A stretch of DNA of 55,213 nucleotides from an uncultured Planctomyces sp. (lineage in GTDB: Bacteria; Planctomycetota; Planctomycetia; Planctomycetales; Planctomycetaceae). Location: assembly GCA_937904325.1 (NCBI GenBank), contig CALGTK010000133.1, positions 1-55,213 on the forward strand, written 5' to 3'. The notes under the pieces were generated by a model that did no database searches, was not told the DNA's origin, and saw only the letters and a list, made by a program, of their open reading frames with translations. This document shows, piece by piece, positions 3,924-38,764 of this stretch (its first letter is position 1; every line of letters begins with the position of its first letter). The position numbers and the translations under genes were made by a program.

Positions 3924-3959
3924 AATTTTGACTCCGGCAGGCAACAGCCGGCGATCAGT

Positions 3960-4502: not shown

Positions 4503-4633
4503 CCGGTGTGATCTGCTCAGGCCCGACCGGGAACGCAGATCCAACTGACCGGCTTATCTGCCCTTGTGGCTATCTTCATCGCAAATTATCCTCCTCTGAC
4601 CTTCGATGGACCGAAGCGGCACGACCTCGCTGC

Positions 4634-4651
4634 ATACTGATTGGTCAGTAT
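4634..4651. repeat. perfect 7-bp inverted repeat upstream of rfbF
   Basis: ATACTGA and TCAGTAT flank a four-base loop (TTGG), about 75 bases before the rfbF start codon. No T-run follows, so it is not a typical intrinsic terminator. It could be an operator or a leader hairpin for the deoxysugar operon. The function is unknown. Confidence 0.45.
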
Positions 4652-4724
4652 TGGCTGCTTAGATGTCCGATTCGATGAGCTGAATTCAGTTATCAAGAGC
4701 CTGACGCCAGCAAGGAAGCGTAAT

Positions 4725-5543: not shown

Positions 5544-5621
5544 TCAGAGCCGGTTCCGACCGGCCAGGAAGCTTTGAAATATCAGTTAGCCGGTGGAAAC
5601 CGGCCCGCTTTGGGGGGAACC

Positions 5622-6662: not shown

Positions 6663-7846
6663 CGCCGGTTCTGTCGCTGGGTGAAACGCCACTGGCCAAT
6701 CGCCTGCTGACTGACGAACAACTCGATACCCCCGAACCCACCTGGCCGCTCGATCTGGCATGGTGTCCTGCGTGCGCGCTCGTCCAGATCACTGAGACTG
6801 TGCCACCGGAGACGCTGTTTTCGGACTATGCGTACTTCTCGTCGTTCTCGGACACAATGGTGGCGCACGCGCAGTCGATCGCACAGCGTCTGATGTCCGA
6901 CCGGGAACTCGGTGCGGAGAGTCTCGTCGTCGAAGTCGCCAGCAACGATGGCTATCTTCTGCAGTGGTACCGTGAAGCTGGTGTCCCGGTCCTTGGCATT
7001 GAGCCAGCACAGAACATTGCGAAAGTCGCGAGAGAAGAACGCGACATCCCGACGATCTCTGAGTTTTTCGGAAAAGATGTAGCCAAACGGCTCGCCAGCG
7101 ATGGTCAACGCGCGGACGTCATTCACGCGAACAATGTCCTCGCCCATGTGGCAGACCTGAATGGCGTCGTCGCTGGCTTTCGCGAGATGCTCAAGCCGAA
7201 CGGAGTCGCCGTCGTCGAGTGTCCTTACCTCAAGGACCTTATCGATCACGTCGAATTCGACACGATCTATCACGAGCACCTTTGCTATTTTTCCCTGACG
7301 GCGCTGGATCGACTCTTTAGAAGCCACGACCTGGAAATCGTTCACGTCGAGCGACTCGAAATTCATGGTGGATCTATTCGAATTCACGCCACGCCACCTG
7401 GAGCCGAACCTGTTCGCGAGTCGGTAAGGTCGTTACTCGCCGAGGAATCCAAGTGGGTCGACAACTCCGAGTCGTATGCGAGTTTCGGAACACGCGTCGA
7501 GAACCTGCAAAAAACGCTGGTCGGGCTACTTGAAAAACTCAAATCAGACGGCAAGCGAGTCGCAGTTTACGGTGCTTCGGCCAAGGGCAGCACGCTGCTG
7601 AACTTCTTCGGCATCGGCAAAGACCAGATCGACTACGTCGTCGACCGCAGCACAGTCAAGCAGGGCCACTACACGCCTGGAACTCACTTGAAGATTTACG
7701 ATCCAGAGCGTCTCACCGAAGACCAACCGGATTACTGCCTGTTACTCACATGGAACTTCGCTGAAGAGATTCTGCAGCAACAGCAACAGTTCCGAGACCA
7801 GGGCGGCCAGTTCATTATTCCAATTCCCGAAGTGCGGGTCGCTTGA
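6584..7846 (+). CDS. zinc-finger sugar C-methyltransferase (TylC3-like)
   Basis: SAM-dependent methyltransferase of the Methyltransf_13/Methyltransf_14 architecture used for C-3 methylation of NDP-4-keto-deoxyhexoses, for example TylCIII in mycarose synthesis. The N-terminal zinc-binding domain has Cys18, Cys21, Cys61 and Cys64 in CRAC and CPAC. The SAM-binding motif [10 protein letters not shown] is at about 117-126. The C-terminal Rossmann-like domain contains [10 protein letters not shown] and ends with IIPIPEVRV, as in the family. The gene starts inside rfbG (ATG at 6584), and no later start would keep the first zinc pair. Placed directly after rfbF-rfbG, it probably methylates CDP-4-keto-6-deoxyglucose or a derivative. 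The position methylated is inferred from relatives. Confidence 0.9.
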
Positions 7847-7859
7847 GAGATCATTCGTC

Positions 7860-8408
7860 GTGAAATTTCTCCCCACGAAATTTGATTCGGCCTGGCTGAT
7901 CGAAGCCGATCGTCACGAAGACGAACGAGGATTCTTTGCGCGGACCTGGTGCCAGCGGGAATTTAAAGAGTACGGGCTCAATCCAGACCTGGTTCAGTGC
8001 AACATTTCGTACAACAGCAAACAAGGGACGCTAAGAGGAATGCACTTCCAGACGGCTCCCTATGAGGAAGCCAAGCTGATCCGGTGCACGACGGGATCAA
8101 TTTATGACGTCATCGTCGATCTGCGACCACACTCACCAACATACATGAACTGGCAGGGATTCGAGTTGTCGGCAGAAAATCGGAGCATTTTGTATGTTCC
8201 TGAGGGAGCAGCGCACGGATTTGTGACGCTCGAACCTAACAGCGAGGTCTTCTATCAGATGTCGCGAGTGTACGAGCCCGAAGCCTCGTCCGGATTCCTT
8301 TGGAAGGATGAGAAGATCGCGATTGACTGGAAGTATCCAGTTAAAATCGTTTCAGACCGAGACTCGAATTTACCGTCGTTTAACACACTCATTCAATCAG
8401 CGGCTTGA
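7860..8408 (+). CDS. RfbC-like NDP-4-keto-6-deoxyhexose 3,5- or 5-epimerase
   Basis: Cupin-fold epimerase of the RmlC family. The general base His62 is in GTLRGMHFQ, the DLR block is at 87-89, GAAHGF follows at about 116-121, and the active-site tyrosine is Tyr132 in VFYQMS. The 182 residues match RmlC length. It uses a GTG start at 7860, 14 bases after the methyltransferase stop. Because the upstream genes make a CDP sugar rather than dTDP-glucose, the substrate is probably a CDP-4-keto-6-deoxyhexose, and the enzyme may epimerise only C-5 if C-3 is already methylated, as in mycarose pathways. Classical dTDP-rhamnose synthesis is less likely because rmlA, rmlB and rmlD are absent here. Confidence 0.88.
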   Translation: MKFLPTKFDSAWLIEADRHEDERGFFARTWCQREFKEYGLNPDLVQCNISYNSKQGTLRGMHFQTAPYEEAKLIRCTTGSIYDVIVDLRPHSPTYMNWQGFELSAENRSILYVPEGAAHGFVTLEPNSEVFYQMSRVYEPEASSGFLWKDEKIAIDWKYPVKIVSDRDSNLPSFNTLIQSAA

Positions 8409-8450
8409 ACGGAAACTCCAGAGAGACCGGCCAACAGCAGCGAGGCAGAA

Positions 8451-9398
8451 TTGCAGACTCACGGCGACCACCATGTGAAACGTGTCCTGGTAACTGGCGC
8501 GACAGGATTCCTCGGACGGCATACGTTGCCATTCATGACCGAGTTGGGCTACGACGTCCACATCGTTTCCAGACATTCGAATCTGAATCAGCCAAAAGTC
8601 ACGGCTCACTGTTGCGACATTTTGGACCCGATGAAATCGACGCAACTACTGGACAAAGTAAGACCGTCCCATTTGCTTCATCTGGCTTGGTGTACGGAGC
8701 CAAAGACTTTCTGGAACACTTCGGACAATCTCCGCTGGTTCAGTGCATCAACTCATCTGTTTTCGTCGTTCGTCAAATTCGGTGGACACCGCATCGTTGG
8801 CTGCGGCAGCTGCGCCGAATACGAGTGGGTCGACGGCCGTGTCTGCCATGAACGGAGCACGCCGACCAGACCTGCAAGCAACTATGGCCGTGCCAAGTTG
8901 TCGACCGGCAACTGGCTTGACACTTTCGCCACGGCGAATGGGATCAGCGCAGCATGGCCACGAATCTTCTACCTTTTCGGCCCCTGGGGACACGAACAGC
9001 GAATGCCTGGATGCATTATCGACGCACTTCTCGACAATCGGCCGGCGAAGTGCTCAAGTGGAACGCAAGCTCGAGACTACATCTACATCACAGATGCAGC
9101 GATAGCGTTGGCAACTTTGCTGGAGAGCCCGGTTGAAGGGCCAGTCAATATCGCGACGGGACAACCAGTACAAATCCTCAAGATCGCGGAGCAAACCGCG
9201 GAGCTCCTGAATCGCCGCCATTTGCTACACGTTGGGGCGTTGCCCGATTCACCGGTGAATAACCCCAACTGGCTGGCCGCCGACGTTACTCGGCTGCGGG
9301 AAGAGGTTGGCATCATCCCACGTGTCAATCAGAATGAAGGTTTGCAGCATACGATCAACTGGTGGAAACACGCCCGACAATCACGTGCCGCATCGTAA
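8451..9398 (+). CDS. NAD(P)-dependent sugar epimerase/4-ketoreductase
   Basis: Extended short-chain dehydrogenase/reductase. The Rossmann motif GATGFLG is at 16-22, and the catalytic Tyr145/Lys149 pair is in NYGRAKL. A likely role is the final C-4 reduction (or an epimerisation) of the CDP-4-keto sugar made by the preceding genes. Two starts are possible. TTG at 8451 has GAGG five bases upstream. GTG at 8475 gives the more family-like N-terminus MKRVLVTGATG but has no visible ribosome binding site. It follows the epimerase after about 40 bases and continues the operon. The exact reaction cannot be read from sequence. Confidence 0.85.
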   Translation: MQTHGDHHVKRVLVTGATGFLGRHTLPFMTELGYDVHIVSRHSNLNQPKVTAHCCDILDPMKSTQLLDKVRPSHLLHLAWCTEPKTFWNTSDNLRWFSASTHLFSSFVKFGGHRIVGCGSCAEYEWVDGRVCHERSTPTRPASNYGRAKLSTGNWLDTFATANGISAAWPRIFYLFGPWGHEQRMPGCIIDALLDNRPAKCSSGTQARDYIYITDAAIALATLLESPVEGPVNIATGQPVQILKIAEQTAELLNRRHLLHVGALPDSPVNNPNWLAADVTRLREEVGIIPRVNQNEGLQHTINWWKHARQSRAAS

Positions 9399-9441
9399 TC
9401 TGTGACTCAGTAAAGATTCGAAACCCAACAAAAGGTCTGAC

Positions 9442-10674
9442 ATGACGACCACGCCCTGCCCAGTATGCGACAGTTCTAAGACGGTCGAATTTCTACGTCG
9501 CGATTCCGTACCGGTTCATCAGAATCTACTGCTGGCAACTGCCGAAGCCGCACGTTCGCTCTCGTCTGGACAACTGGCCATGACCATGTGCGAACAGTGC
9601 AGTTTCGTCTTTAATAGCGAATTCGATCCGTCTCTGCTCACCTACGGAACGGATTACGACAATTCTCAAACTTTCTCACCGGCTTTCGACAATTACGTCG
9701 GTGAACTCGTGGACCACCTCGTCAATGAGCAAGGCGTCCAGCAATCTTCGATTGTCGAAGTCGGCTGCGGCAAAGGCGACTTTCTCCGGCGACTTGTCTC
9801 GGTCGAGACGCTGGGAAATTCCGGACACGGGTTTGACCCCGCATATGTCGGTCCCGACGTCGACTTGGACGGTCGACTTCAGTTTCATCGGCAGTTCTAC
9901 GATGCGGAATGTTCCCGCACACCGGCTGATGTGGTGATCGCAAGACATGTGATCGAGCATGTCGCCCAGCCTCGCGAACTGCTTTCAAGCATACGAGCCG
10001 CACTGAACTCGAATCCCGACGCGCGAGTCTTTCTCGAGACGCCTTGCGTCGAGTGGATTCTGAGACATCGGGTCGCCTGGGACTTTTTCTACGAGCATTG
10101 CTCGCTCTTCACGGTCGAATCACTTTCGACGGCTGCCGAAGAATCCGGCTTCGACGTCAAATCAGTCCGACACGTCTTTGGCGGCCAGTACCTGTGGCTG
10201 GAAGCCACTCCGGCCTCGCCAGCTCAGACACATACTTCGGCGACCAGCCGAACAGTTCCTTCAAACGGAGCCGGGCTAACAGACTCGCACGAGCTTCTGC
10301 AACTGGCCCACGAATATGGAATAACAGAGGCACATCGCAATGCTGCCTGGCAATCGCGTATTCGCGAGAATGCTCAATCCTCTGGTCTGGCACTATGGGG
10401 GGCCGGTGCCAAAGGGGTGACGTTCGCCAACCTTGTTGATCCACACCGAAGGCTCATCGATTGCCTCGTAGACGTGAATCCTAATAAACAGGGTCAGTTT
10501 CTCGCCGGAACTGGCCATCCCATTGTCAGTCCCGAGTCTCTCAGTCAGCGCAATATCCGCACAGTCGTTGTACTGAATCCTAATTATTGTCACGAAATCC
10601 GCCAGCAACTGGCACAGGCGAATATGCCTGTGACTGTTGTGGATCTTATGAACGAAGGAGTCAAAGCCGCATGA
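9442..10674 (+). CDS. second zinc-finger class I methyltransferase
   Basis: SAM-dependent methyltransferase with the same three-part layout as the protein at 6584-7846. A zinc-binding N-terminal domain has Cys6, Cys9, Cys50 and Cys53. The SAM motif is VEVGCGKGDF (105-114). The C-terminal domain contains LWGAGAKGVTFAN and LVDVNPNKQG. It is clearly divergent from the first copy rather than a recent duplicate. The region around VIARHVIEHV is a typical class I motif following the SAM site. The stop overlaps the start of the next gene (ATGA), so the two are translationally coupled. It may methylate another carbon or another sugar of the same glycan. Confidence 0.87.
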   Translation: MTTTPCPVCDSSKTVEFLRRDSVPVHQNLLLATAEAARSLSSGQLAMTMCEQCSFVFNSEFDPSLLTYGTDYDNSQTFSPAFDNYVGELVDHLVNEQGVQQSSIVEVGCGKGDFLRRLVSVETLGNSGHGFDPAYVGPDVDLDGRLQFHRQFYDAECSRTPADVVIARHVIEHVAQPRELLSSIRAALNSNPDARVFLETPCVEWILRHRVAWDFFYEHCSLFTVESLSTAAEESGFDVKSVRHVFGGQYLWLEATPASPAQTHTSATSRTVPSNGAGLTDSHELLQLAHEYGITEAHRNAAWQSRIRENAQSSGLALWGAGAKGVTFANLVDPHRRLIDCLVDVNPNKQGQFLAGTGHPIVSPESLSQRNIRTVVVLNPNYCHEIRQQLAQANMPVTVVDLMNEGVKAA

Positions 10675-11438
10675 AACTCAACATCGACACTGACAACAGC
10701 AGAGTGACGCACGAACAAAATGGAGTCGAAAGGGAATTGCCACTGTATTCCAGGGAGGCATTCGAAGTCCTGTCAGACCTTTGGGTCAAGGTCGGCTGGG
10801 ACCAGAAGTATTCTTACACGTTTTCCTGGATGGGACGTCCTGTGATCCAACTGCCAGGGGATCTTATCCGGACACAGGAGGTAATTTACGATCTGCGTCC
10901 GGACGTTATTGTTGAAACAGGAGTCGCGCACGGCGGCTCGCTCATCTTCTACGCAGGACTGTGCTCGTCCATGAATCACGGACGCGTAGTCGGCGTAGAC
11001 ATCGAAATACGTCCACACAATCGACAAGCTATCGAAGCTCACGAGATGGCCGGGCTTATCACCTTGATCGAAGGTGACTCAGCCTCCCCAGAAACGGTCA
11101 ACCGAGTACGTTCACTGATTAAGCCTGGCGAGAGTGTTCTGGTAATCCTCGATTCGTGTCATACGCGACAACACGTGCTCGCTGAACTAAATGCCTATCA
11201 CGAACTGGTAACACTTGGATCATGGCTGGTCGCAACCGACGGAATTATGCGCGACGTGCATGACGTACCACAGGGTTCTGCAGACTGGAAGACGGACCAT
11301 CCAGCGGCAGCAGCACAGGACTTTCTACAAATCCACGATAATTTCGTACTCGAACAACCCGAATGGCCATTCAATGAAAGCGACCTGGAAAAGAATATCA
11401 CGCACTGGCCCGGAGCCTGGTTGCGCCGCGCCGCATGA
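10671..11438 (+). CDS. CmcI/rhamnosyl O-methyltransferase-like protein
   Basis: Member of the CmcI family (Pfam RMNT_CmcI), which includes rhamnosyl O-methyltransferases and the cephalosporin hydroxylase-associated methyltransferase CmcI. The SAM-binding loop is VETGVAHGGSLIFYA. A GVDIEIRPHNR strand and the acidic metal-binding LVILDSCHT block follow, as in the family. The ATG at 10671 overlaps the upstream stop by four bases and gives 255 residues, the normal length. Coupling to a sugar methyltransferase makes O-methylation of a deoxysugar the most likely job. Many database entries call such proteins cephalosporin hydroxylase, which is probably a misnomer here. Confidence 0.87.
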   Translation: MKLNIDTDNSRVTHEQNGVERELPLYSREAFEVLSDLWVKVGWDQKYSYTFSWMGRPVIQLPGDLIRTQEVIYDLRPDVIVETGVAHGGSLIFYAGLCSSMNHGRVVGVDIEIRPHNRQAIEAHEMAGLITLIEGDSASPETVNRVRSLIKPGESVLVILDSCHTRQHVLAELNAYHELVTLGSWLVATDGIMRDVHDVPQGSADWKTDHPAAAAQDFLQIHDNFVLEQPEWPFNESDLEKNITHWPGAWLRRAA

Positions 11439-11498
11439 CCTCGCTTTCCACAAAGCCTTGAAACGCGGTCGCCGAACTTTCAAGGAGCAGGACATTTC

Positions 11499-12557
11499 AT
11501 GATGCCAGCCTCGACTATAATCATTCCCACCCACAATCGGCCACAGTTTCTAAAACGTCTGTTACTGTTTCTTTCCCGTGTTCAGTGTCCGTCATCTATC
11601 GTTGTCGTCGATTCCAGCGACTCCAGTAACGCGAGCCTGTCTGCGGTAGTCGTCGATGATGTCCAGTCTCAACTTCCCATAAACTACATTCACAACCGAC
11701 AGCGTTTCGAAGTGAAGTGTATGGAGACGCTTCAGGCAACCCTGACTCCGTATGTCGTTTTGTGTGCCGATGATGATTTTATTAATCCGTTCGCCATAGA
11801 ACCCTGTATATCATTCCTGGAAGATAACCCCGATTACGCAATTGCAAGGGGAGTGCAGTTCATTCAGACAACTGACCGGGAACGCCGAATTAAGCCGGCC
11901 AGGTTTCGTGACCTTGATGTGAGCGATCCTGCCAGGCGATTCTCCTACTTTTCCGATAACTGGTACTCAACATTTTATTGTGTCCATCGCACACCTGAAT
12001 TACTGAGCGATTTTCAAATTACGTGCGAGCACACAAACTCAGAACACTCAATTATTCTCCCAGAGCTGCTGCTGACGTACCTCAGCGTCATTCGAGGCTG
12101 CACACGATATCTGCCACACTTCTACGGGATGCGGCAGTCGCACGCGAATGCTGCCAGCTGTATCGCCCCCAAGATTACAGACACAACTAACTACGACGCA
12201 CATTATCGGCGCTTCACGCAATGCGTCGCTCGTGAATTGTCCGCAGCTTCTACGTTGAGTCAGGACGAGTCCAATCGACTGGTTGAGCGTTGTCATGGTC
12301 GGAACAGAGCCACCTGGGAGTCCGGTGCAGGAAAGAAACAATCAGGCATGGCTGGCGTGATACGTGAAATAGCTCGGCCACTTCGTAAAGCAGTCAGCAT
12401 ATTTCGGCACGGAAGTATGCGACACAACTGGAGGACCCACCCCAATCTCAAAGGTCTGGAGAACGACGACATCTATCGGTTGATGGCACAGCTGATTGAT
12501 ACGTTTCCAGGTGGTTGTGACATCGATCCAGACTGGAAAAACGGTGAAGCTGCGTGA
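11499..12557 (+). CDS. TIGR00180-type glycosyltransferase
   Basis: GT-A glycosyltransferase. The N-terminus has the nucleotide-binding strand STIIIPTHNRPQFLKRLL followed by VVVDSSDSS. CADDDF supplies the DxD-type metal motif at about 90-95. The remainder of the 352-residue protein is less conserved and lacks membrane helices. ATG codons at 11499 and 11502 are both possible. AAGGAG lies about 11 bases upstream, so either works. It follows the CmcI-like gene by 60 bases and probably transfers one of the sugars made by this cluster to a growing polysaccharide in the cytoplasm. Confidence 0.83.
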   Translation: MMPASTIIIPTHNRPQFLKRLLLFLSRVQCPSSIVVVDSSDSSNASLSAVVVDDVQSQLPINYIHNRQRFEVKCMETLQATLTPYVVLCADDDFINPFAIEPCISFLEDNPDYAIARGVQFIQTTDRERRIKPARFRDLDVSDPARRFSYFSDNWYSTFYCVHRTPELLSDFQITCEHTNSEHSIILPELLLTYLSVIRGCTRYLPHFYGMRQSHANAASCIAPKITDTTNYDAHYRRFTQCVARELSAASTLSQDESNRLVERCHGRNRATWESGAGKKQSGMAGVIREIARPLRKAVSIFRHGSMRHNWRTHPNLKGLENDDIYRLMAQLIDTFPGGCDIDPDWKNGEAA

Positions 12558-12824
12558 AAACTGTGCACTACGCGGACCACGCAAAAATACGATGGCACTT
12601 TCCGGCAAGACGATTGCAACAACGGCTGTGGCGCCGGGTGACCCACAAGACGAATCTGTTGAATCGAATCCAAAGCCGATGAGTCTGGCGACAAGACCTC
12701 TCCGGGTTTCCTGAAATTCTGTGGCCGGTCGCGACGTCGACGCTGGCTCGACTCATGGGAATTCGAAAACTACCCGTTGAACGAGCGGCGCAATTCTTTC
12801 CTTGAAGACGAACTGGCACGCGAT

Positions 12825-13880
12825 ATGCGAGTTTTACTGGCGGGCAATTTTCAGATACGGAGATACGGCGAAGTTCGAATCCTCTCCGATCGAAAACTGT
12901 ACTACGGTCTCGTCCGAAACGGGCATCAGGTACTCGATTTCAGCGACCGCGATATCGCCGCCTTCAACGCGCCGTTTCGATTGCGGGATTTTGGTCGAAA
13001 TGCGGCGAACCGGAGGTTTCTGGAGACCTGCCGCAAGTTCCGTCCAGAACTGATCATCGTTAACCACTGTGACATCATCACAAACGATTCGCTTCTGAAG
13101 GCCAGGCAACTGGATCCGAATGTTCGAATCGCGTTTCGAAACGTTGACGCTCTTTTCCTGAAGTCCAACGTACAGCGAATTTTCGATCGACTCGAATGCG
13201 TCGACCATGTTTATGTCACGACTGCCGGTACACCGCTGGACCAGTTTCGAACTGGCGGTGCCAGTGTTTCTTTCATTCCAAACCCCGTCGACATCAGTAT
13301 CGAAACGGAAGACAACTCTCGAAAGCCACCAGCGGAACTGGATGTTGACCTGCTGTTCTGTGGTAACGGCCGTCCTGGGTGTCCTCGACTGGAGTATGTG
13401 CAGCACTTGAAAAAGAACTTGCCTCAAAACTGCCGTTTTGAATCGTATGGTACCATAGGGCATCCGCCAGTGTGGGGATATGAATACGAGCAGTTGCTTG
13501 CGAGAACTCGAATGGCGCTGAATCTGAATCGCGAAGAATGCGGTAACCTCTATACGTCGTCGCGCGTTGCCCAGTTGATGGGTAATGGAATCCTGACATT
13601 CATTCATCGGGCGAGTGATCTCGAACGATTGTTCGGTAAAGACCGCGCCGCGTACTTTGATTCAGAGGACGAACTGCTCGAAACCGTGCTGCACTTTCAG
13701 AACAACGACGAAGAGCGACAGCGAGTCGCAAGTGCCGGCCGCGTGTATTCGTTTGAGCATTTTTCCTCGGATGCGATTTCGCAGTTCATAGTTGAAAAAA
13801 CAATGCAGTTGCCGATGTCGCGTGAGTACGTCTGGGATGCCGACTCACTGCCAAATGCAACCGGACAAAATGCTGCATAG
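12825..13880 (+). CDS. CgeB-like GT-B glycosyltransferase
   Basis: Predicted GT-B fold glycosyltransferase similar to the CgeB/Glyco_trans_1_2 group. The N-terminal domain starts RVLLAGNFQIRRYGE and has the YRNVDALF-like strand FRNVDALF. The C-terminal domain starts at DVDLLFCGNG and has the donor-binding region LNLNREECGNLYTSSRVAQLMGNG-type helices (summarised by ALNLNREE and SRVAQLMGNG). ATG at 12825 gives 351 residues with the conserved MRVLLAGNF start but no good Shine-Dalgarno. The same frame is open back to about 12661 with protein-like sequence and a TTG at 12777, so the true start or an upstream frameshift is uncertain. It is the last gene of the polysaccharide cluster. Confidence 0.82.
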   Translation: MRVLLAGNFQIRRYGEVRILSDRKLYYGLVRNGHQVLDFSDRDIAAFNAPFRLRDFGRNAANRRFLETCRKFRPELIIVNHCDIITNDSLLKARQLDPNVRIAFRNVDALFLKSNVQRIFDRLECVDHVYVTTAGTPLDQFRTGGASVSFIPNPVDISIETEDNSRKPPAELDVDLLFCGNGRPGCPRLEYVQHLKKNLPQNCRFESYGTIGHPPVWGYEYEQLLARTRMALNLNREECGNLYTSSRVAQLMGNGILTFIHRASDLERLFGKDRAAYFDSEDELLETVLHFQNNDEERQRVASAGRVYSFEHFSSDAISQFIVEKTMQLPMSREYVWDADSLPNATGQNAA

Positions 13881-13887
13881 CACTTCT

Positions 13888-13931
13888 GAAACCACGAATA
13901 ACGACTGAAATTCGTGTCCATTAGTGGTTTC
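13888..13931. terminator. nested inverted repeat between convergent genes
   Basis: GAAACCAC (13888-13895) pairs with GTGGTTTC (13924-13931), and inside or alternatively CACGAAT pairs with ATTCGTG (13893-13899 and 13910-13916). A short T-rich stretch follows. It lies just after the last polysaccharide gene, which converges with hisD, so a bidirectional terminator or a dispersed palindromic repeat is likely. Confidence 0.45.
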
Positions 13932-14042
13932 TTTGCTCGAAGGCCATCGTCTCAGAAGAGAGCGATCAAAATGGCATCGCTGTTTCAGAATCCGGGAGGC
14001 AGCTGGCGAAACTCTGCTGAGCCGGCATTCCACGAATGCCGG

Positions 14043-15413
14043 TCACTTCCGCAAGCGGATGTCGACACTTTCACTGTGAGCGGTCAAACCTTCCTTGCCG
14101 GCCACCAACCGAAGATCCTCGGCCCCCGCTGCCAGAGCGGCTTCGTTGTACCAGATGACGGACGACCGTTTGAGAAAGTCGTTCGAGCAAAGACCGTTGG
14201 CAAACCTCGCCGTTCCTCCAGTTGGAAGAACATGCGACGGCCCGGCGATGTAGTCGCCAACCGCGACCGGAGTGTAGTGTCCGAGGAAAATCGCTCCCGC
14301 GTTCTGGACGTTGTCCAGCATTTTTTCCGGTTCGGCCGTTGAGATGTGAAGATGCTCGGGCGCCATCAGGTCGGTCAATTCGGCCGCCTCTTCGGCATCC
14401 TTTGCCAGAATCAACGCTCCGTAGTCCAGCAGACTGATTCGCGCCAAGTCGCCCCGCGGCAAAAGACGCAGTTGCTTCATAAGTTGTTCGCGAACGGCTT
14501 CGATCAACGGCTCGTGCCAGGTGATCAGGACTCCCGACCCCGGGCTATGCTCAGCCTGCGAGATTAAATCCGCCGCGACGAAATCAGGACGAGCCGTTTC
14601 GTCAGCCAGCACGATAACTTCGCTTGGTCCCGCAATACTGTCGATGTCGACTTCGCCAAAAACGTGCCGCTTAGCGAGGGCAACGAATAAATTTCCTGGG
14701 CCAACGATCTTGTCGACTCGCCTGATGCCGGACACTCCGTAAGCAATTGCTGCTACGGCCTGTGCTCCGCCCATGCGGTAAACTTCCGTGATACCGAGCT
14801 CATGGCACGCTGCGAGAAGATCCGTGTTGTAGCCACCGAAGTCGGTCGGCGGCACAACGACGACGATTTCTTTAACACCCGCAACCTGCGCAGGAACGGC
14901 CGTCATCAACAGAGTCGACGGATACGCGGCAGCCCCACCGGGAACGCAGATTCCCACACGCTGGAGCGGCAAATATCGCTGGCGGAGTTCAATTCGAGTG
15001 TCGCCATTCTCGCGAATCTGGCCGACGTCCTCGGAAAGTATGGCCTGCTGAAACTCGACGATATTGTCTCGGATGCGCCGAATCGTGGCGAGGTACGCTG
15101 GATCGGCAGCTTCGTGAGCCACTTCGAACTCTGCCGCCGAAACACGAATTGTCTGCTCAGTTAGTTCTTTGCCATCCAGCTTCTTCGAATATTCAAGCAC
15201 GGCAGCCAGACCGTCAGCTCGAACATCATCACAGATTTTTTCAACAACCTGTTGTGGTGACAGCGGCTCACCAAACAGGTCGATCGTGCGCTGACGCCCT
15301 GCTTCGGACACGATATTGCCGCCAGGGCTCAGCTTATCTCGTAACCTGTTCAGGGCCTCTTGCGCGTCGTTGTGGCGGCAGTAAATTGTCTGAATCGAAA
15401 GAACATCGCTCAT
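14043..15413 (-). CDS. hisD: histidinol dehydrogenase
   Basis: Zinc- and NAD-dependent enzyme that oxidises L-histidinol to L-histidine in two steps, in the cytoplasm. Family landmarks include KIVGPGNLFVALAKR, the SIAGPSEVIVLAD block and the catalytic QAEHSPGSG with its histidine. The metal-site region APEHLHI and the GDYIAGPSHVLPTGGTARF signature near the C-terminus are also present. The frame is open to 15431, but the ATG at 15413 (MSDVLSIQ) gives 456 residues, close to the usual 430-440. It stands alone: no other his genes are adjacent, which is common in planctomycetes. Confidence 0.96.
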   Translation of the reverse strand: MSDVLSIQTIYCRHNDAQEALNRLRDKLSPGGNIVSEAGRQRTIDLFGEPLSPQQVVEKICDDVRADGLAAVLEYSKKLDGKELTEQTIRVSAAEFEVAHEAADPAYLATIRRIRDNIVEFQQAILSEDVGQIRENGDTRIELRQRYLPLQRVGICVPGGAAAYPSTLLMTAVPAQVAGVKEIVVVVPPTDFGGYNTDLLAACHELGITEVYRMGGAQAVAAIAYGVSGIRRVDKIVGPGNLFVALAKRHVFGEVDIDSIAGPSEVIVLADETARPDFVAADLISQAEHSPGSGVLITWHEPLIEAVREQLMKQLRLLPRGDLARISLLDYGALILAKDAEEAAELTDLMAPEHLHISTAEPEKMLDNVQNAGAIFLGHYTPVAVGDYIAGPSHVLPTGGTARFANGLCSNDFLKRSSVIWYNEAALAAGAEDLRLVAGKEGLTAHSESVDIRLRK

Positions 15414-26845: not shown

Positions 26846-28498
26846 TTACAGGAACATCGCTTCAAGTTCGACGAGTTCAACGCTGATTTGAATCAACAAC
26901 TCGTAGATGTGGTCGCGGTCTGGCGCATCGCAATCAGCAATGTGACGATGAAGCAATTCCCACTCGGAATAGATCGTCGCGCAGTGGCCACGCAGAACCT
27001 CTTCCGGCGTGTCATGGACCAACGCGGCATGTAACTGCCGAGAGGCCGTTCTGAAATGCGAGCAATGTTCAAGCATTTCCTTGCGCTCGCCTGCGAACTT
27101 CGATGCTCCACGCAGCCAGCTTTCAATGTCGACATGTAAATGATCGGCAAGGCGTTCGATGGCCCCGGCTCGCTGACGAGCATTGTTCGCATCAAAGCCT
27201 CCGGGAATGCCAAGCGGTTCACGAAGCGCGACCAGTCGCGCTTCAATTTCGGTCAGCGAGTGCCGGATTCCGTCATGCTGTACTTTGCGAAAATGCCGCG
27301 AAAACGAAACCCATGCCGACGGCAAATAGTCATAAGCATCGACCAGCTCATCGATATCATTTTCCTGCTCCACGCAGTCGGAAAAGTGCTGGCAGATACC
27401 GTGAAAATCGGAAGCGGAACTCGGCACGTCTTCATAACCTGGCAGTTGAATCAGCAAGCTCAATGAAACCGAATCGAAAATCCGATCAACTTCCGTCGTG
27501 ATGCCTCGCGTTAATTGAATCAGCAATTCCCGGTCGAGCCCGCGCGGCAGCCAGAGCAGTTCATGCATGGACTGATCCACGTTTTGAATTCGCAAGACCG
27601 TGCGTTCGATAAAACGACTTTCAAAGGAGCAGAGTTCTCGAACCAGCGGATTCCACTTTCGCAGAAATCCTTTGTAGTCAGCGACTAACGCCAGATAGGG
27701 TCGGCCGGCGGAAACGGAGTCAGAGAACCCAACGGCCGCCTGATGAGCCTGGCTGGTTTTGAGCATCAACGCGTTTCGAGACGAAGAACGACGAAGCTCG
27801 TAAGCAATATCATCACTCAGACCGTGGAGGTAAACAACGAGACCTTCGCTCTGCCGCTGCAGCGTTCGGCGATCGATCTGTGGCTCAATCGAAAGCACAT
27901 CGCACAACTCTACATCGAACCGGTCGAGCTGCCCGATACACGTTCGGCACGGCTGCGAGAGATTTGGAACCTGTTGAAGCCGATATGAAAACCGACGCCA
28001 GTCGCTGTCGAGTCTCTGCACGTCCTGCACTATGAAACGATGATTCGGGACTGCACGACTCCGCTGCGAAATTGCGTCTGCTCGAGCCTGAAGTTGCACA
28101 GCATCCGCGATCAATGACCGCAATCCGGCGTTGGTTGTCGACTCTTTTTGAAGCAACGTACTTAGCGTGATGCTCTCTTGCCGAAACGACTGAACCGATA
28201 CGCGAGCTCTGCCAAGTTCGGGAGTTGCTCTAACGCCAGGACGCGGTGCCCCCGGACGAAGCTGCTGTTGATTCGGACCGCCTTGCCCTCGCATCTGAGA
28301 TTCCACAAGGATCTTCAGAATACCACCGACGATCTTCTTCGTCTTGTCATCGGCGGACGTTGAATCAACTCGCAGCAACAACGTTGCAACTACTGCGGCA
28401 AGAGCGAGAGCAAACGATCGCCGCCGCCGCGGGTCACTCACTCCATTTCGTGAAACGAATCGTGAGAGCACGCCTTCCGAAAGTTCTGTGGCAACCAT
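26846..28498 (-). CDS. secreted helical protein of unknown function
   Basis: No family recognised. The ATG at 28498 has GGAGAA eight bases upstream and is preferred to the longer frame from 28537. It gives 550 residues. After a basic stretch (RRRRSFALALAAVVATLLL) a signal peptide is probable, with cleavage near STSA. A Gln/Gly/Pro-rich linker follows and then a long, largely helical mature part with many charged residues. It carries one CRTCIG pair about a third of the way in. The repeated heptad-like helices suggest a coiled, periplasmic scaffold. No neighbouring gene suggests its role. Confidence 0.7.
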   Translation of the reverse strand: MVATELSEGVLSRFVSRNGVSDPRRRRSFALALAAVVATLLLRVDSTSADDKTKKIVGGILKILVESQMRGQGGPNQQQLRPGAPRPGVRATPELGRARVSVQSFRQESITLSTLLQKESTTNAGLRSLIADAVQLQARADAISQRSRAVPNHRFIVQDVQRLDSDWRRFSYRLQQVPNLSQPCRTCIGQLDRFDVELCDVLSIEPQIDRRTLQRQSEGLVVYLHGLSDDIAYELRRSSSRNALMLKTSQAHQAAVGFSDSVSAGRPYLALVADYKGFLRKWNPLVRELCSFESRFIERTVLRIQNVDQSMHELLWLPRGLDRELLIQLTRGITTEVDRIFDSVSLSLLIQLPGYEDVPSSASDFHGICQHFSDCVEQENDIDELVDAYDYLPSAWVSFSRHFRKVQHDGIRHSLTEIEARLVALREPLGIPGGFDANNARQRAGAIERLADHLHVDIESWLRGASKFAGERKEMLEHCSHFRTASRQLHAALVHDTPEEVLRGHCATIYSEWELLHRHIADCDAPDRDHIYELLIQISVELVELEAMFL

Positions 28499-28660
28499 GA
28501 TCGTTGTTCTCCATGGTCCATGTATATTGCGATGCAAAAGCTGACTCCGCAGTTCCGTACGTCGGGATGATGAGCGATGATGGTGCCTCAGGTCAAAACA
28601 AGACTGAAGAGTACGATCGCCGACAGCCTGTCACATTGAGCAGCCTGAATAACCGAAACA

Positions 28661-29105
28661 TCATTCAGCTGAATCAGTAAGACTTCCCAGAGGCACGCTT
28701 GGACTGGGATCCGCCAGCACGTCGGCCAGAGTCGAATTGCGAAACTCTTCTTCCACGAAACTCATCGCGTTGTCCAGTCTACGATGCAAATCGCACAGTT
28801 TGACGCAATGCTCTCGAAGACCGAGCGGGCACGATTCGATTCTCTGCAACGGGTCTACGACACTCACCACGTCGACGATGGTCGACGATGGTCAACTCAT
28901 CCGGATCCGGCACGAGGGTCATTCCGCCACCGATTCCGCGTTGAGACCGGACGATGACGGCTCGCTCAAGACCCTGCAGAACTTTCGACAGGCAGGCCGC
29001 CGGAACCTGCGGCGCGTCAGCAATCTGAGCCGTCGTGTGAAGCTCACCCTCGCGTGCCAGAAACACGACCGCCCGCAGCGCATATTCCACAGATCCCGAA
29101 AGCAT
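28661..29105 (-). pseudogene. Rrf2-family regulator interrupted by 10-bp duplication
   Basis: The first 72 or so residues form a normal Rrf2 winged-helix domain (MLSGSVEYALRAVVFLA, the TTAQIAD helix, SKVLQGLERA and GIGGGMTL wing). At the junction the frame is broken. The sequence GTCGACGATG occurs twice in tandem at 28871-28890. Removing one copy joins ELTIVD to VVSVVDPLQRIESCPLG and gives exactly 144 residues with the usual Rrf2 C-terminus. The three cysteines (ESC, EHC and LC, with 7 and 3 residues between them) could bind an Fe-S cluster, but their spacing is not that of IscR or NsrR. It is divergent from the protoglobin gene. Confidence 0.85.
28871..28890. repeat. 10-bp perfect tandem duplication
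   Basis: Two copies of GTCGACGATG lie side by side within the Rrf2 gene. Ten is not a multiple of three, so the second copy shifts the frame. It could be a slipped-strand mutation, a reversible phase switch or an assembly error. Confidence 0.9.
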
Positions 29106-29339
29106 TCATTGCCCGAGCTGAACTCGACCTTTACGTCCGATTTGAACCCTGCAATACATAAACCAAACTGGATATTTGGGTCCGATTTATTCAGTACCAC
29201 AAAAGCATGCAAGTACACTGCCAGATATGCCGGCCGATCGGAAGCCTGATTCAGCACAAAACTCGTGAGACAGGGAGAAACCTGATTAGGAGCATCGACG
29301 AACAGAAACTGGGATCAGATCTGGGTTACCGATTCGGCT

Positions 29340-29819
29340 ATGTCACCGACATTCATCGGCTTTGGCGAGGATGACATCGCGGCAATCCACGGTTCTGCCG
29401 CACATCTCGCACCGATAGTCCCCCAACTGGTCGACGCCGTATACGACAAGCTGTTTTTGTATGACGCGACCAGGCGTCAGTTTGTGCCGAGACAATCAGG
29501 CTACGAAGGTGACGTCCCGGAAAACGTCGAAGCCTTGCTGATGAATCACGAAATGATCGAAGTCCACAAGCTGCACCTGGGCCGCTACCTCGAACGACTC
29601 GTAACGAAGCCGTTCGACGGAAACATGCTCAACGATCTCGACCTGGTCGGAAAAATGCATACGCCAAAATCCGGAAGCAAGGAACTCGATATCCCGCTTG
29701 TTCAGATGAATGCTCTGATGGGATTTATGTCGGACGCATTGATCGACACGATCCTCAGCCTGGACCTCGATGCCGAAACAACCAGTCGGACCTTGCGAGC
29801 ATTCAACAAGCTACTCTGA
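29340..29819 (+). CDS. protoglobin-family haem protein
   Basis: Single-domain globin of the protoglobin family (PF11563), whose members bind O2, CO and NO and often act as gas sensors. The sequence starts with the family pattern TFIGFGEDDIAAIHGSAAHL and has the proximal region EVHKLHLGRYLERLV (histidine near residue 80-85) and KMHTPKSGSKELDIPLVQMN. The length of 159 fits the globin domain alone, with no attached output domain. It is divergent from the Rrf2 gene across about 230 bases, the classic regulator-target arrangement. It is followed by a small membrane protein and HemQ on the other strand. No strong ribosome binding site is seen before the ATG. Confidence 0.8.
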   Translation: MSPTFIGFGEDDIAAIHGSAAHLAPIVPQLVDAVYDKLFLYDATRRQFVPRQSGYEGDVPENVEALLMNHEMIEVHKLHLGRYLERLVTKPFDGNMLNDLDLVGKMHTPKSGSKELDIPLVQMNALMGFMSDALIDTILSLDLDAETTSRTLRAFNKLL

Positions 29820-30065
29820 CTGCAGAACGATCTAATCACCCGACACTATCAGGCAAACGGAGCAGCGATGTTCCTCAGTCAACTGTAGTAAGTCCACCCT
29901 GGTTGTCTGGGCGACGCGTGGCGAGCCGCGGGTTTTTAATTCTTTCCAGATTCGCTTCTTGCCAGGCTTTACACACATCAGCAATCGCCGATAGAAAGCA
30001 TTGAAATGCCTCGTCGCCGGTATGAGGCTGGAGCTCCCCACCCCTGAATCTCCACAAGCACATCC

Positions 30066-30326
30066 ATGCTGACTCAGATCACCGAACGCATCCCGCCTCT
30101 TTCCATTCTGCTTCCCATACTACTGACCATTTGGGCTGTAGCTTGCACCTGGCTGCACGGCCCGGCGATTGTGGCGTACATCCTGCTGCAGGCAGCGACG
30201 TCTGGAATCTTCGCGCTCAGTATGTACCGGATCAGTAGTCTTCATTCGCGGTCGCCGGAAAAGCCAAGTGACAGTAGCGAAAAGTCTGCCGCGAAAAATG
30301 AAAAACGACCGATCACAACATCGTGA
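30066..30326 (+). CDS. small two-helix membrane protein
   Basis: An 86-residue protein with two predicted membrane segments (about LSILLPILLTIWAVACTW and AIVAYILLQAATSGIFALSM) and a charged Ser/Lys-rich cytoplasmic-type tail. No family recognised. It begins about 250 bases after the protoglobin gene, and its last codons overlap the hairpin that terminates the convergent hemQ transcript. Position suggests a link to the haem genes, but there is no direct evidence. Confidence 0.6.
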   Translation: MLTQITERIPPLSILLPILLTIWAVACTWLHGPAIVAYILLQAATSGIFALSMYRISSLHSRSPEKPSDSSEKSAAKNEKRPITTS

Positions 30327-30367: not shown

Positions 30368-31216
30368 CTACAGTCGGACGTGCGTGATGGTGTCTTCTGG
30401 CGTGGCAATATAGCTGATGAAGAACGGTCCGAACTCGGCATATCGAGCCGAAGCTTCGTCAAAACGCATCTTATAGACAATTTCTTTGATGTGCTCTGGA
30501 GCTCGTCCCCACAAAGTCACACCCCACTCCCAATCATCAAAGCCGGTTGATGCAGTAATAAGCTGGCTGACGCGGCCGGCGAATGCGATCCCGCTCGTAG
30601 CGTGTTCAGCCATCAGGGCTGACCGCTCGCTGAACGGAATGACATACCAGTTGGCGTGTGGGTCTCGAATTTTGTTCATCGGGTAGAAGCTGCAAACTGG
30701 AAACGTCGGAAAGTCCGGATAAGTTCGCTGCTTGTTCATCATGGGTAGCCGCTGCTCGTACGCTCCGACCTTCGCAGCAAACGACGGATTATCTGGTCCG
30801 GTTCCATCGGCAATCAGTCTTTCTTTGTACTGTTCGACCGTCGGTACGTACTCAGAAACTTCGGTAATCGACACAAACGAATAGGTCGGTTTCAGAGCAA
30901 CTCCCAGCCGAGACGCACGAATTTCCTGCTTCACTCGATCAATGACCAGCGGGTCCGGGTCCATAATCATCAGAGCAATATCGCCTCTTCCACCAGAAAG
31001 GATCGAAGTCTGCAGTCTCTCGGGCGCGCCTTCGCGTTCGGGGTTCAGGATTTGGGCAAGCTGCTCGCGGCCTTCCGCCCGTTGGTGCTCATGCACTGAG
31101 TTCAAAGCGGCCTGGTCGACTTGATAATTGATGTGCAGACAATGCCAGCCCTCGGTCAATCTGATCGTCGGATCGGGCAGGTTCTGAGCCCCGCGAGTAT
31201 GTGCTGGTCGGTTCAT
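30368..31216 (-). CDS. hemQ: HemQ/ChdC coproheme decarboxylase (chlorite dismutase family)
   Basis: Chlorite-dismutase-family protein of the HemQ type, which performs the last step of the coproporphyrin-dependent haem pathway: H2O2-driven decarboxylation of iron-coproporphyrin III to haem b. The HemQ signature YPMNKIRDPHANWYVIPF (catalytic tyrosine and nearby lysine) is present. FSERSALMAEHATSG contains the proximal haem histidine, and the C-terminus has TLWGRAPEHIKEIVYKMRFD and EFGPFFIS. The 282 residues are a little longer than usual because of a hydrophilic N-terminal extension. It lies beside the protoglobin and opposes it. A dedicated terminator follows. hemB is 11 kb away. Confidence 0.9.
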   Translation of the reverse strand: MNRPAHTRGAQNLPDPTIRLTEGWHCLHINYQVDQAALNSVHEHQRAEGREQLAQILNPEREGAPERLQTSILSGGRGDIALMIMDPDPLVIDRVKQEIRASRLGVALKPTYSFVSITEVSEYVPTVEQYKERLIADGTGPDNPSFAAKVGAYEQRLPMMNKQRTYPDFPTFPVCSFYPMNKIRDPHANWYVIPFSERSALMAEHATSGIAFAGRVSQLITASTGFDDWEWGVTLWGRAPEHIKEIVYKMRFDEASARYAEFGPFFISYIATPEDTITHVRL

Positions 31217-31315: not shown

Positions 31316-32971
31316 CTACTCCGGCGCCGCGATGGATGTGGATGGCTCTTCAGGGCCAGCCCAATCGGGCAGACCGCCAGTCGAGAGTCCGAGATGCGGA
31401 ACGAGGTAAAAAACCGTTCCCAACGTCAGCAGCGTCACTCCGATGAGATTCAGCAGGAATCCTTTCCGAGCCATGTCGCCCATCGAAAGCACGCCCGAGC
31501 TGAAGACAATTGCGTTCGGAGGAGTCCCTATCGGCAGCATGAACGCACAACTCGCAGAGGCCGCTGCCGGCAACATCAGCAGTCGCGGATCGATATTCAG
31601 TTTCAGCGACGCCTCGGCAAGGACCGGCATGATAACACTGACGACGACGACGTTCGTCGCAAACTCAGTCAAAAACGTTAGTAAAAAACAGATCGCCGCG
31701 ACCAGAGCCCAAATTTGCCACCCGTCGACTGTTCCGGCAAAAGCATCGCCCACCCACTCGGCCAGTCCGGTTTCCTTGAAGGCACTCGCAATAGCAAAAC
31801 CACCGCCGACCAGCAGCAGAATTGCCCAGGGCAATTTTTGAGCAGTCTCCCAGTTCATCAGCCGCTGTGGCTGGCCGCCGACCGATCGCTCGCCGGGCAG
31901 AGCAAACATCAGGACGGCCATTCCCACAGCGACGGTCGAGTCATGCACAACGCCTTTGGGAAACGTTGCCGGGTTCGCATGCAGTGTTTCAAACAGGAAT
32001 GACTTGACGAGAGCTTCCCAGCCGCCAAGCAACGTGGTATCGCCAAACTCGAGTGGCCGCCGAAACGTCCAGAGCATCGCGGTCGCCATAAAAATTGCCA
32101 ACATCATCCATTCGGAGCGTGATGGCTTGCCGATTGCCTTCAGACGATCGCTGAAGAACTGCCGGTTCACTGCATTTTTTCCCGGAGTCGGCATCCGAAA
32201 CGTAAGAATGCCCCACGTCACAAACAGCATGACGATGCCGATCGGGCCAAAAGCGGCCAGCCACCCTCCCGCCGAAATCTGTGGACCGTCTGCAAAACGG
32301 CTTTCCCAAAGACTGACAAACTGCACGTTGGTGACCGTTCCAACGAGCGTTGTCATCCCTCCGATGCTGGCCGACCACGCAATGCCCAGCATCAGCGAAA
32401 TGCCAAACGGTCCCAACGGTCCGTTTCGATCGATCCTGTTGTCAATTGCTTTTGAATTGCCATCCGCACGACTGCTTAAAGCGTCCTGCAGCGAGACCAC
32501 CAACGCGACAGCGATCGGCGTCATCAGCAGCGTCGACGCGGTATTGCTGATCCACATCGACAAAAACGCCGTCGCGACCATGAATCCAAGGATCACCTTT
32601 CGCAAGCTTGTTCCCAACACTCGCACAATGTGTAAAGCAATCCGCTGATGAAGGCCCCAGCGTTCGATACCCAGCGCAATGATGAATCCACCAAGAAACA
32701 GGAAGACCAGTTTATTGATATAGGCTGAGCTGACCGTGTCCGGGCTTTGAATTCCGAGCAGCGGGAACATCAGCACCGGAATCAGGCTGGTCGCGGCGAT
32801 CGGAATTGCCTGAGTCAGCCACCAGGCAGACATCAACGCCGTCGTCGCCAGCAGTCGCCGAGCTTCAACGGTCATTCCAGCCGGCAACGGCATCCACAGA
32901 ATCGTTGCAAAGAGTACGGGGCCGATGACAAGGCCAACACTGGCGGCACGATCATTTCCGGAATTCGACAT
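31316..32971 (-). CDS. SLC13/DASS family sodium:carboxylate symporter
   Basis: Polytopic inner-membrane transporter of the divalent anion:sodium symporter family, which takes up succinate, citrate, tartrate or related anions (sulfate in some members). The first hairpin motif SNTASTLLMTPIAVAL and the second signature FMLPIGTPPNAIVFSS near the C-terminus mark the two sodium/substrate sites. About 11-12 hydrophobic segments are visible. The 551 residues fit the family. Downstream on the minus strand is hemQ about 100 bases away, and no metabolic gene for the substrate is adjacent. Confidence 0.9.
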   Translation of the reverse strand: MSNSGNDRAASVGLVIGPVLFATILWMPLPAGMTVEARRLLATTALMSAWWLTQAIPIAATSLIPVLMFPLLGIQSPDTVSSAYINKLVFLFLGGFIIALGIERWGLHQRIALHIVRVLGTSLRKVILGFMVATAFLSMWISNTASTLLMTPIAVALVVSLQDALSSRADGNSKAIDNRIDRNGPLGPFGISLMLGIAWSASIGGMTTLVGTVTNVQFVSLWESRFADGPQISAGGWLAAFGPIGIVMLFVTWGILTFRMPTPGKNAVNRQFFSDRLKAIGKPSRSEWMMLAIFMATAMLWTFRRPLEFGDTTLLGGWEALVKSFLFETLHANPATFPKGVVHDSTVAVGMAVLMFALPGERSVGGQPQRLMNWETAQKLPWAILLLVGGGFAIASAFKETGLAEWVGDAFAGTVDGWQIWALVAAICFLLTFLTEFATNVVVVSVIMPVLAEASLKLNIDPRLLMLPAAASASCAFMLPIGTPPNAIVFSSGVLSMGDMARKGFLLNLIGVTLLTLGTVFYLVPHLGLSTGGLPDWAGPEEPSTSIAAPE

Positions 32972-33142: not shown

Positions 33143-34441
33143 TTACGAATCCACAACTGACAGGCCGACCTGTCGTGCTCGTTCTCTCACGATGGCTGAC
33201 TTGCGTTGCTCGATCGTTGCTTCGTGAAGGTGCCGTAAGAGCCGTTCCTGCGCGAGTGTCAGATCATGGCCGCGACGATCCATCGCGGCTCGAGCAGTGT
33301 CCAGGGCCGATTCAAGATTGAGATCGTTATCGAGGTCGCCGTGCCAGACTCGGGCAAACGAAGGCACAAATTTCGGTAGCAGCTCGCCGCCTGGCAGTAA
33401 CATCGTCATCACGCCAATGGACGTTCCAGTGTTGAACAGGCTGCACACCGCGGTCTTTGAATGGTCGCCGATGAAGCAGCCAACTTTCGTCGATCCAGAA
33501 TCGATCGATTCACCGCTCAACGGAACCCGGACCGTTGAGTAGTCGTTCTTCAGATCGCTGTTCGTCGACAAAGCTCCCATATTGACCCACGGGCAAACAT
33601 AGCCATGCCCCAGGAAACCGTCGTGATACTTGTTCGCGTACCCGTGCAAGATCGAGTTTTCAATCTCACCGCCGACTCGGCAGACAGGACCGATCGTCGT
33701 GCCGGCTTTAACATTGGCCCGGAAGAGCTGACTGTCATAACCGATGTGGCACGGACCTTCGATTCGGGTGTAAGCCTGAACTTTGACACCAGATTCAATT
33801 GAAACCGGGCCGCTACGAGCATCGATCACGACGAACGGGTCGATATCAGCACCCCGGCTGACGAAGACGTTCTGGGGCTCTCCCAGCACGGCGATCTGCG
33901 GCCCGAAGTCCGTCTGCCCGTCCGTGAAATCTCTCGAGCGAAAATCCACTTCCAATTGTTCCGGGTTGAAGTCAACCAGGTCCCACGGATGGCTGATTGT
34001 TTTTCCTTCAGCTGGAACAGCGTTTCGCATCCCCGCGATTTTGAGCAGCGGATCGGCCCATTCGGTGTCGGTCACTAGCGAAGATTCAAACGTGTCGACG
34101 ACCAGAAACGCGAGCATGTCGCCGCAAAATCCGGCGGCGTCGCTGTCCACTGCGGAAAGTTGCTCAATCGCATCCGGTGTCGGCAGCCAGCGAGCGTTGA
34201 TCAGCAAAGTCGGTTCTTCGCCCAGCCAGACGCAGTCGTTGACGAACGCTTCCGGGCTGAATTCTCGATAGGACGACTGAAGGTAAGGGCGAATGAAGAC
34301 GCCCCATTCATGAACATCCAGAAAACGAATCAGCCGCTCACGCAGACTGAACTGCCCGCAAAGAAGCTCGAACACCGGCCGAGTCAGAGCGATCGGCGCA
34401 AATCCGTCCGCACCGTCATCTTCGAAAAATGCGATCCGCAT
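33143..34441 (-). CDS. GlmU-like sugar nucleotidyltransferase/acyltransferase
   Basis: Protein of the NTP_transf_4 (PF13562) type, often annotated as GlmU family or putative sugar nucleotidyltransferase. The N-terminus MRIAFFEDDGADGFAPIALTRP replaces the usual GlmU nucleotidyltransferase P-loop. The C-terminal half has the hexapeptide rhythm of a left-handed beta helix (for example VFVSRGADIDPFVVIDARSG and GPCHIGYDSQLFRANVKAG). GlmU proper keeps LAAGxGTRM, which is absent here, so a normal UDP-GlcNAc role should not be assumed. It is divergent from the large surface-protein gene. Start chosen at 34441, the longest ATG. Confidence 0.85.
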   Translation of the reverse strand: MRIAFFEDDGADGFAPIALTRPVFELLCGQFSLRERLIRFLDVHEWGVFIRPYLQSSYREFSPEAFVNDCVWLGEEPTLLINARWLPTPDAIEQLSAVDSDAAGFCGDMLAFLVVDTFESSLVTDTEWADPLLKIAGMRNAVPAEGKTISHPWDLVDFNPEQLEVDFRSRDFTDGQTDFGPQIAVLGEPQNVFVSRGADIDPFVVIDARSGPVSIESGVKVQAYTRIEGPCHIGYDSQLFRANVKAGTTIGPVCRVGGEIENSILHGYANKYHDGFLGHGYVCPWVNMGALSTNSDLKNDYSTVRVPLSGESIDSGSTKVGCFIGDHSKTAVCSLFNTGTSIGVMTMLLPGGELLPKFVPSFARVWHGDLDNDLNLESALDTARAAMDRRGHDLTLAQERLLRHLHEATIEQRKSAIVRERARQVGLSVVDS

Positions 34442-38277: not shown

Positions 38278-38764
38278 ACGTCGACTGTCAGTCGCCTGCT
38301 CCAGGTCACAAACAGAAACTCGTTCTTTTCGTTGGTCAACCTGCTAACTAACCCTGGTATTCGCCGCCGACTGTCGCCTGTATTCGTATTCCAAACAGCG
38401 AGTCCATCTCAAGGGGATTGCTGCCATAGCTGTTGATGACGAGTTAGAGCAGATTGCTGAATGGCTGAAGACTGAAAAAGGATATCCTGATCTCGAAATT
38501 GAAAAAACATCCTTCACCTTCGCCATTACGAAGAGAACACAAAACTGAATTCCGTCATGGATTTAATCGGCTCCGGATCGCTCAACCTCACTGCGATCAT
38601 CAACCAGGCCTTGTCGGATGAAAGCGAGCAATAACGTGAGCAGCGCTCACTAATCGTAGACACCTTCCAATGAAACAGCTCTCCGGACTCAGTGTCTGGC
38701 GGGATGTTTTCGATTCTGAATGGTCTTTCGGACAGTGCCGACTCCAAGGCAAAATCCAGGCAAA
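38278..38764. other. 487-base gap with an orphan reading frame
   Basis: The only notable content is the startless open frame at 38348-38548, listed separately, and a 25-codon ATG frame at 38557-38634 of no evident meaning. No RNA or strong hairpin was seen. Confidence 0.4.
38348..38548 (+). pseudogene. startless protein-like fragment
   Basis: A frame open for 66 codons between two stops reads as convincing protein at its C-terminal end (HLKGIAAIAVDDELEQIAEW, then KTEKGYPDLEIEKTSFTFAI). It has no ATG, GTG or TTG start, so it looks like the 3' remnant of a deleted gene. It is somewhat AT-richer than its neighbours. No family was recognised. A minus-strand 60-residue frame over the same bases is less protein-like. 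Confidence 0.4.

Follow-up and report, generated by a model that had tools for sequence, protein, structure and literature searches.

In the 55,213-nucleotide stretch of planctomycete DNA analysed here (the window), a pseudogene of the Rrf2 regulator family occupies 28661-29105 on the minus strand, and a protoglobin pseudogene lies divergent to it at 29285-29858 on the plus strand. The source assembly is a draft of 7.97 Mb in 488 contigs, and its species is represented by one genome. Five congeners (G001-G005), members of the same planctomycete genus, were compared with it; the relatives of the source genome that carry names are Planctomycetaceae and Rhodopirellula genomes assembled from metagenomes. 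The alignment of the Rrf2-protoglobin region holds the window and four congeners (G003, G005, G004 and G001). G002 lies outside this alignment; its Rrf2 frame is open, and it lacks the neighbouring gene because its contig begins 33 bases before the Rrf2 gene.

The Rrf2 locus is a pseudogene because its frame is broken into pieces of 75 and 69 codons. The first piece (28881-29105, minus strand) retains the N-terminal winged-helix domain, residues 1-75 scoring 61 bits against Pfam PF02082 (cut-off 30). The second (28664-28870, minus strand), closed by a TGA stop at 28661-28663, gives a weak rrf2_super match (E 0.081). No continuous frame runs through the C-terminal helix and cluster-binding region, the break falling at 28871-28890. 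Translation past the frameshift yields a 108-aa frame (28779-29105, minus strand) made up of the winged-helix part and then 33 unrelated residues, and so without the C-terminal helix, which in Rrf2 relatives bears two conserved cysteines (C-x11-C). The corresponding frame is open in all five congeners (144-149 aa, no stop), and the first 75 residues, used as a query, find an Rrf2 match in 55 of the 59 genomes examined. A genome-wide profile search detected no second Rrf2 protein above the cut-off in the source genome; contig C374 has a weak match of 21.8 bits. A 170-aa open frame (28737-29249, plus strand) runs antisense to the regulator and exceeds the remaining sense frame in length. An antisense frame is open in G005 too, and codon composition probably accounts for it.

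The frame is broken by an exact 10-bp tandem duplication, with GTCGACGATG found twice, head to tail, at 28871-28890. The identity extends three bases further, to 28893, and TRF describes the repeat at 28871-28893 as period 10, 2.3 copies and 100%. An earlier, sequence-only reading had singled out this frameshifting repeat, stated that removal of one copy would leave 144 residues and suggested a check of copy number in close relatives. The repeat and the count are borne out, the two pieces summing to 75 + 69 codons. A single copy is present in 4/4 aligned congeners, and the Rrf2 frame is open in all five. Since the aligned congeners carry one copy, the second copy is an insertion. No other exact tandem duplication of period 10-40 is found in the window. 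Across ten first-order random sequences of window length one such duplication turned up in total, which makes the mere occurrence of one only mildly unusual. A GTC triplet flanks both ends of the 10-bp interval in G003, G005 and G001, not in G004. The duplication most likely arose by slippage during replication between two such triplets, 10 bp apart in a single-copy ancestor. Dating the event from the identity of the copies was rejected, as 10-bp copies offer too few bases; it is possibly late among the lesions at this locus. Ordinary bacterial pseudogenes can arise by short tandem duplication. The present case resembles them in the exact duplication between 3-bp flanking repeats, the lost frame and the relaxed selection, and differs in that a regulator and its neighbour decay together; otherwise nothing sets it apart. 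The duplication is probably an ordinary slippage event, and it is one lesion among several.

The remaining lesions lie in the neighbour. Protoglobins are described as proteins of about 195 residues, and globins were reported from the two planctomycetes sequenced at that time (PMC1457004). In the window the globin domain is recognizable, with 108.5 bits against Pfam PF11563 over 29352-29858 and one TGA inside the match. A complete frame with a start codon is missing. The start position (29285-29287, plus strand) reads ATT where the congeners have ATG, and a one-base (C) insertion at 29350, missing in 4/4 aligned congeners, throws the sequence out of frame once ~21 codons have been read. A premature TGA at 29817-29819 (plus strand) replaces the TGG codon of W178 found in 4/4 aligned congeners; tryptophan occupies this position in 20/20 homologues. 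An in-match stop was flagged for other genomes as well, e.g., G005, and this TGA was judged by alignment instead. The last codons also differ from those of the congeners. The gene is intact in the four congeners whose contig extends to it. Over residues 23-191 the remnant shares 86% identity with the protoglobin of G005; it differs from other protoglobins in the lost start, the frame break, the premature stop and the replacement of conserved residues. A 159-aa frame (29340-29819) opens at an internal ATG at 29340 and retains 88.8 bits of protoglobin similarity, and a shortened product may be made from it. No other protoglobin was found by a genome-wide profile search of the source genome. Absence of protoglobin is not rare in the family, as matches occur in 95 of 120 genomes.

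Damage of this kind is not general in the window. The window is collinear with a G003 contig at ~81-88% identity. When 44 G003 ORFs were compared with it, the Rrf2 frame was clearly divided on the window side, and the first 22 residues were missing from the match to protoglobin. Several of the 44 were instead split in G003, e.g., feoB, which is a single 789-aa frame in the window. On the G003 contig (L052-L054), frame breaks interrupt several long conserved genes that run unbroken in the window; these breaks, feoB included, are probably assembly errors in G003. For two further short ORFs of this comparison two frames appear (matches at 29878-30149 and 38354-38628), and these ORFs may not be genes. 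Because the other long genes of the window have open frames, indels are not a general feature of it. The nearby HemQ-like haem gene, for example, is intact, with a dN/dS of 0.05 against G003, and shows no sign of an effect.

Loss of selection is apparent in both genes. With G005 as outgroup, each change was placed either on this lineage or on the one leading to G003, the nearest sampled relative. In the Rrf2 gene the ratio of replacement to silent changes was 18:10 on this lineage vs. 3:16 in G003 (Fisher p 0.0012). The protoglobin gave 23:13 vs. 5:19 (p 0.0015), its 23 replacements including the start and stop changes. Four neighbouring genes were pooled as controls (26846-28537, 30368-31216, 31316-32971 and 33143-34441), with 87:206 here and 54:206 in G003. 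On this lineage the pair differs sharply from the neighbours (41:23 vs. 87:206, p 5e-7); on the G003 lineage it does not (8:35 vs. 54:206, p 0.84). A slight replacement excess here relative to G003 is seen in the neighbours as well (p 0.019), a point against the decay reading. Amino-acid relative-rate tests agree with G005, G004 or G001 as outgroup (with G005, 15 vs. 1 for Rrf2 and 21 vs. 4 for protoglobin), so that choice of outgroup was rejected as the source of the signal. Selection is thus relaxed in both genes on this lineage and not in the four neighbours tested, about as strongly in the protoglobin as in the regulator. The outgroup is needed to see this, because pairwise dN/dS against G003 does not make the pair an outlier. 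The values are 0.26 and 0.16 for the two Rrf2 pieces and 0.14 for protoglobin, compared with a median of 0.12 (range 0.03-0.87) for 35 other ORFs, a list drawn mechanically that may include ORFs that are not genes. With the pair only mildly raised, pairwise dN/dS was set aside as a sole test. Worked from the lineage counts, replacements stand at ~0.055 per site vs. ~0.15 silent changes per site in the neighbours; as a rough estimate, selection would have been lost over about one third to one half of the branch.

The residues that changed point the same way. Conservation was scored from 42 rows for Rrf2 and 21 for protoglobin, the latter including a 47-residue remnant from locus L042; these rows exclude the window, duplicate loci, L012 and L049, and the lost start codon and last residue are not counted among the replaced positions. 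Positions at least 90% conserved make up 6 of the 17 replaced on this lineage in Rrf2 (background 66/144) and 11 of 20 in protoglobin (background 102/191), while none of the six replaced on the G003 lineage is so conserved. Conserved sites were therefore replaced as often as chance would have it, as expected for change without selection. In Rrf2, T32P, Y38C and G97C fall at positions invariant in 42/42 relatives. In protoglobin, H65Q, F93V, R94H, Y110F, Y117D, V136I, V148M and W178* all fall where the compared relatives agree.

In many planctomycetes the divergent Rrf2-protoglobin pair is conserved. There were 44 distinct loci with an Rrf2 relative, the window and three duplicates being left out, and at 20 of these a full-length divergent protoglobin is present, with 63-100% identity to that of G005 (itself included). 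One locus (L012) has a distant protoglobin of 35% identity and one (L042) a remnant. At 22/44 no protoglobin was detected in the available stretch; many of these stretches are 3.2 kb, and L004 ends at the gene. L042, from an uncultured Schlesneria, has an intact Rrf2 gene at 5001. Upstream of it, at ~4650-5000, the protoglobin is cut to its first ~44 residues within a 75-aa ORF, and a cytochrome-like gene comes next. Here the globin was lost independently and the regulator retained. At several loci without protoglobin (L038-L040, L043, L047 and L048), the nearest large gene upstream of Rrf2, judged by eye, often encodes ~440-500 aa with CxxCH, a heme-binding motif. At L044 and L046 a glutamine-synthetase-like gene, also named by eye, is found upstream. 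Genes of both kinds are possible other targets of the regulator.

The interval between the two genes carries a predicted protoglobin promoter. Of the 20 other loci that have the pair, 17 show TTGACA there, one shows TTGACG and two show neither, and 16-18 bases after TTGACA there is a hexamer matching TATAAT at 3-5 of 6 positions. In the window the -35 position (29130-29135, plus strand), assigned by consensus match only, reads TTTACG. Downstream of it, a predicted Rrf2 operator position is occupied by the inverted repeat AAACTGGA-N8-TCCGATTT at 29165-29188. This repeat has two mismatches to AAACTGGA-N8-TCCAGTTT, the same number as in the intact G004 and G005. The strict pattern occurs once each in G003, G004 and G005, at the Rrf2-protoglobin locus; a genome-wide search found none in the source genome, G001 or G002. 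With two mismatches allowed, there are 24 forward matches in the six genomes vs. 21 for a reversed control. Operator decay was therefore rejected as evidence, the mismatches being at the G004/G005 level and the relaxed pattern hardly commoner than its control. A second palindrome, seen by eye, surrounds TTGACA in the intervals between the genes. Palindromes over and next to the -35/-10 region, together with the divergent layout, suggest that the Rrf2 protein probably acts on the protoglobin promoter, and the layout would fit repression. Whether the intact pair is a dedicated, self-contained planctomycete unit, whose Rrf2-type sensor has, in this genus, the divergent protoglobin as its sole target and acts by way of twin palindromes that cover the promoter, is evenly balanced on present indications. 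If so, loss of the whole unit in the window would show that the sensor has no other essential target in the genus. The conserved pair and its likely operator offer a place to test the signal and role of protoglobin in planctomycetes.

The locus is read here as what remains of a divergent two-gene module, in which an Rrf2-type repressor most likely controlled the protoglobin beside it. Selection on both genes would have been lost on this lineage after the split from G003, and their joint decay would have taken up a sizeable part of the time since; we give this a probability of roughly 0.92. Loss of one gene would have made the other dispensable. Frame-disrupting lesions missing from close relatives and a loss of purifying selection seen with three outgroups are what a pseudogene should show, and ordinary gene loss, with co-decay well under way, is the best reading. 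In place of a candidate phase-variation switch there is plain gene loss.

That switch was among the proposals of the sequence-only reading. Alternation between one and two copies would switch the regulator between active and inactive states, and the protoglobin along with it. An exact 10-bp unit, not divisible by three, inside the coding sequence of a regulator speaks for such a switch, and phase-variable genes with coding tandem repeats share a unit of this kind. They differ from the present case, which has 2.3 copies, no second copy in any of the four aligned congeners and damage beyond the repeat. A functional coding sequence at one of the two copy numbers is not found here. The one-copy protein had been called family-perfect; T32P, Y38C and G97C, spread across both frames, and the other well-conserved positions among its 17 replacements contradict that description. 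Because otherwise invariant residues are replaced, reversion to one copy would not restore a normal regulator. These replacements and a replacement:silent ratio far above that of the neighbours also imply that selection has not maintained a working one-copy state. Three coding lesions affect the presumed target itself, so that the neighbouring protoglobin, with its start lost, a +1 insertion and a premature TGA, does not stand as a working target either. A reversible switch is thus extremely improbable. An error of sequencing or assembly, with a true genome that has one copy and a working regulator, is scarcely easier to accept. The assembly is a draft, the named congeners are metagenome-assembled, and G003 has frame breaks of its own. 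However, one mis-assembled repeat could account at most for the duplication and not for the neighbour's substitution pattern, start loss and nonsense change, and the surrounding genes, feoB and the HemQ-like gene included, are open here. A third possibility, very unlikely as well, is recent inactivation of the regulator alone, with protoglobin activity preserved by a start at the internal ATG (29340). The identical repeat copies and the similarity left in the 159-aa frame would suit it, but copies of 10 bp say little on age. The protoglobin has lost its start, N-terminus, conserved tryptophan and -35 hexamer, has replaced F93, R94, Y110 and Y117, which are invariant in 20/20 homologues, and has had its selection relaxed about equally. 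Inactivation, as first proposed, therefore stands; the epithet "recent" does not, given the many lesions and the long-running loss of selection in both genes.

Among characterized proteins, the nearest solved structures to the Rrf2 protein by sequence are 6hsd/6y45 (RsrR) and NsrR (5n07). The winged-helix N-terminal part matches the Rrf2 family as described above; the source-genome frame breaks after residue 75, and an expressed product would differ from the family in lacking the C-terminal part. The ligand positions of NsrR and IscR include a middle cysteine, which the planctomycete Rrf2 relatives lack. NsrR is itself an Rrf2 protein. It is described as controlling NO-response genes in several bacteria, including a truncated-globin operon in Legionella (PMC3820574). 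Among the open-access papers searched, none joins protoglobin with Rrf2, and none joins Rrf2, globin and a planctomycete; three mention protoglobin together with NsrR and five mention it together with a planctomycete.

Elsewhere in the window, near its left end, a segment of ~11.5 kb (2579-14044) is absent from the otherwise collinear G003 contig. Its ORFs, named by eye, resemble a surface-polysaccharide cluster and include a nucleotidyl transferase, a sugar dehydratase, methyltransferases and glycosyl transferases.
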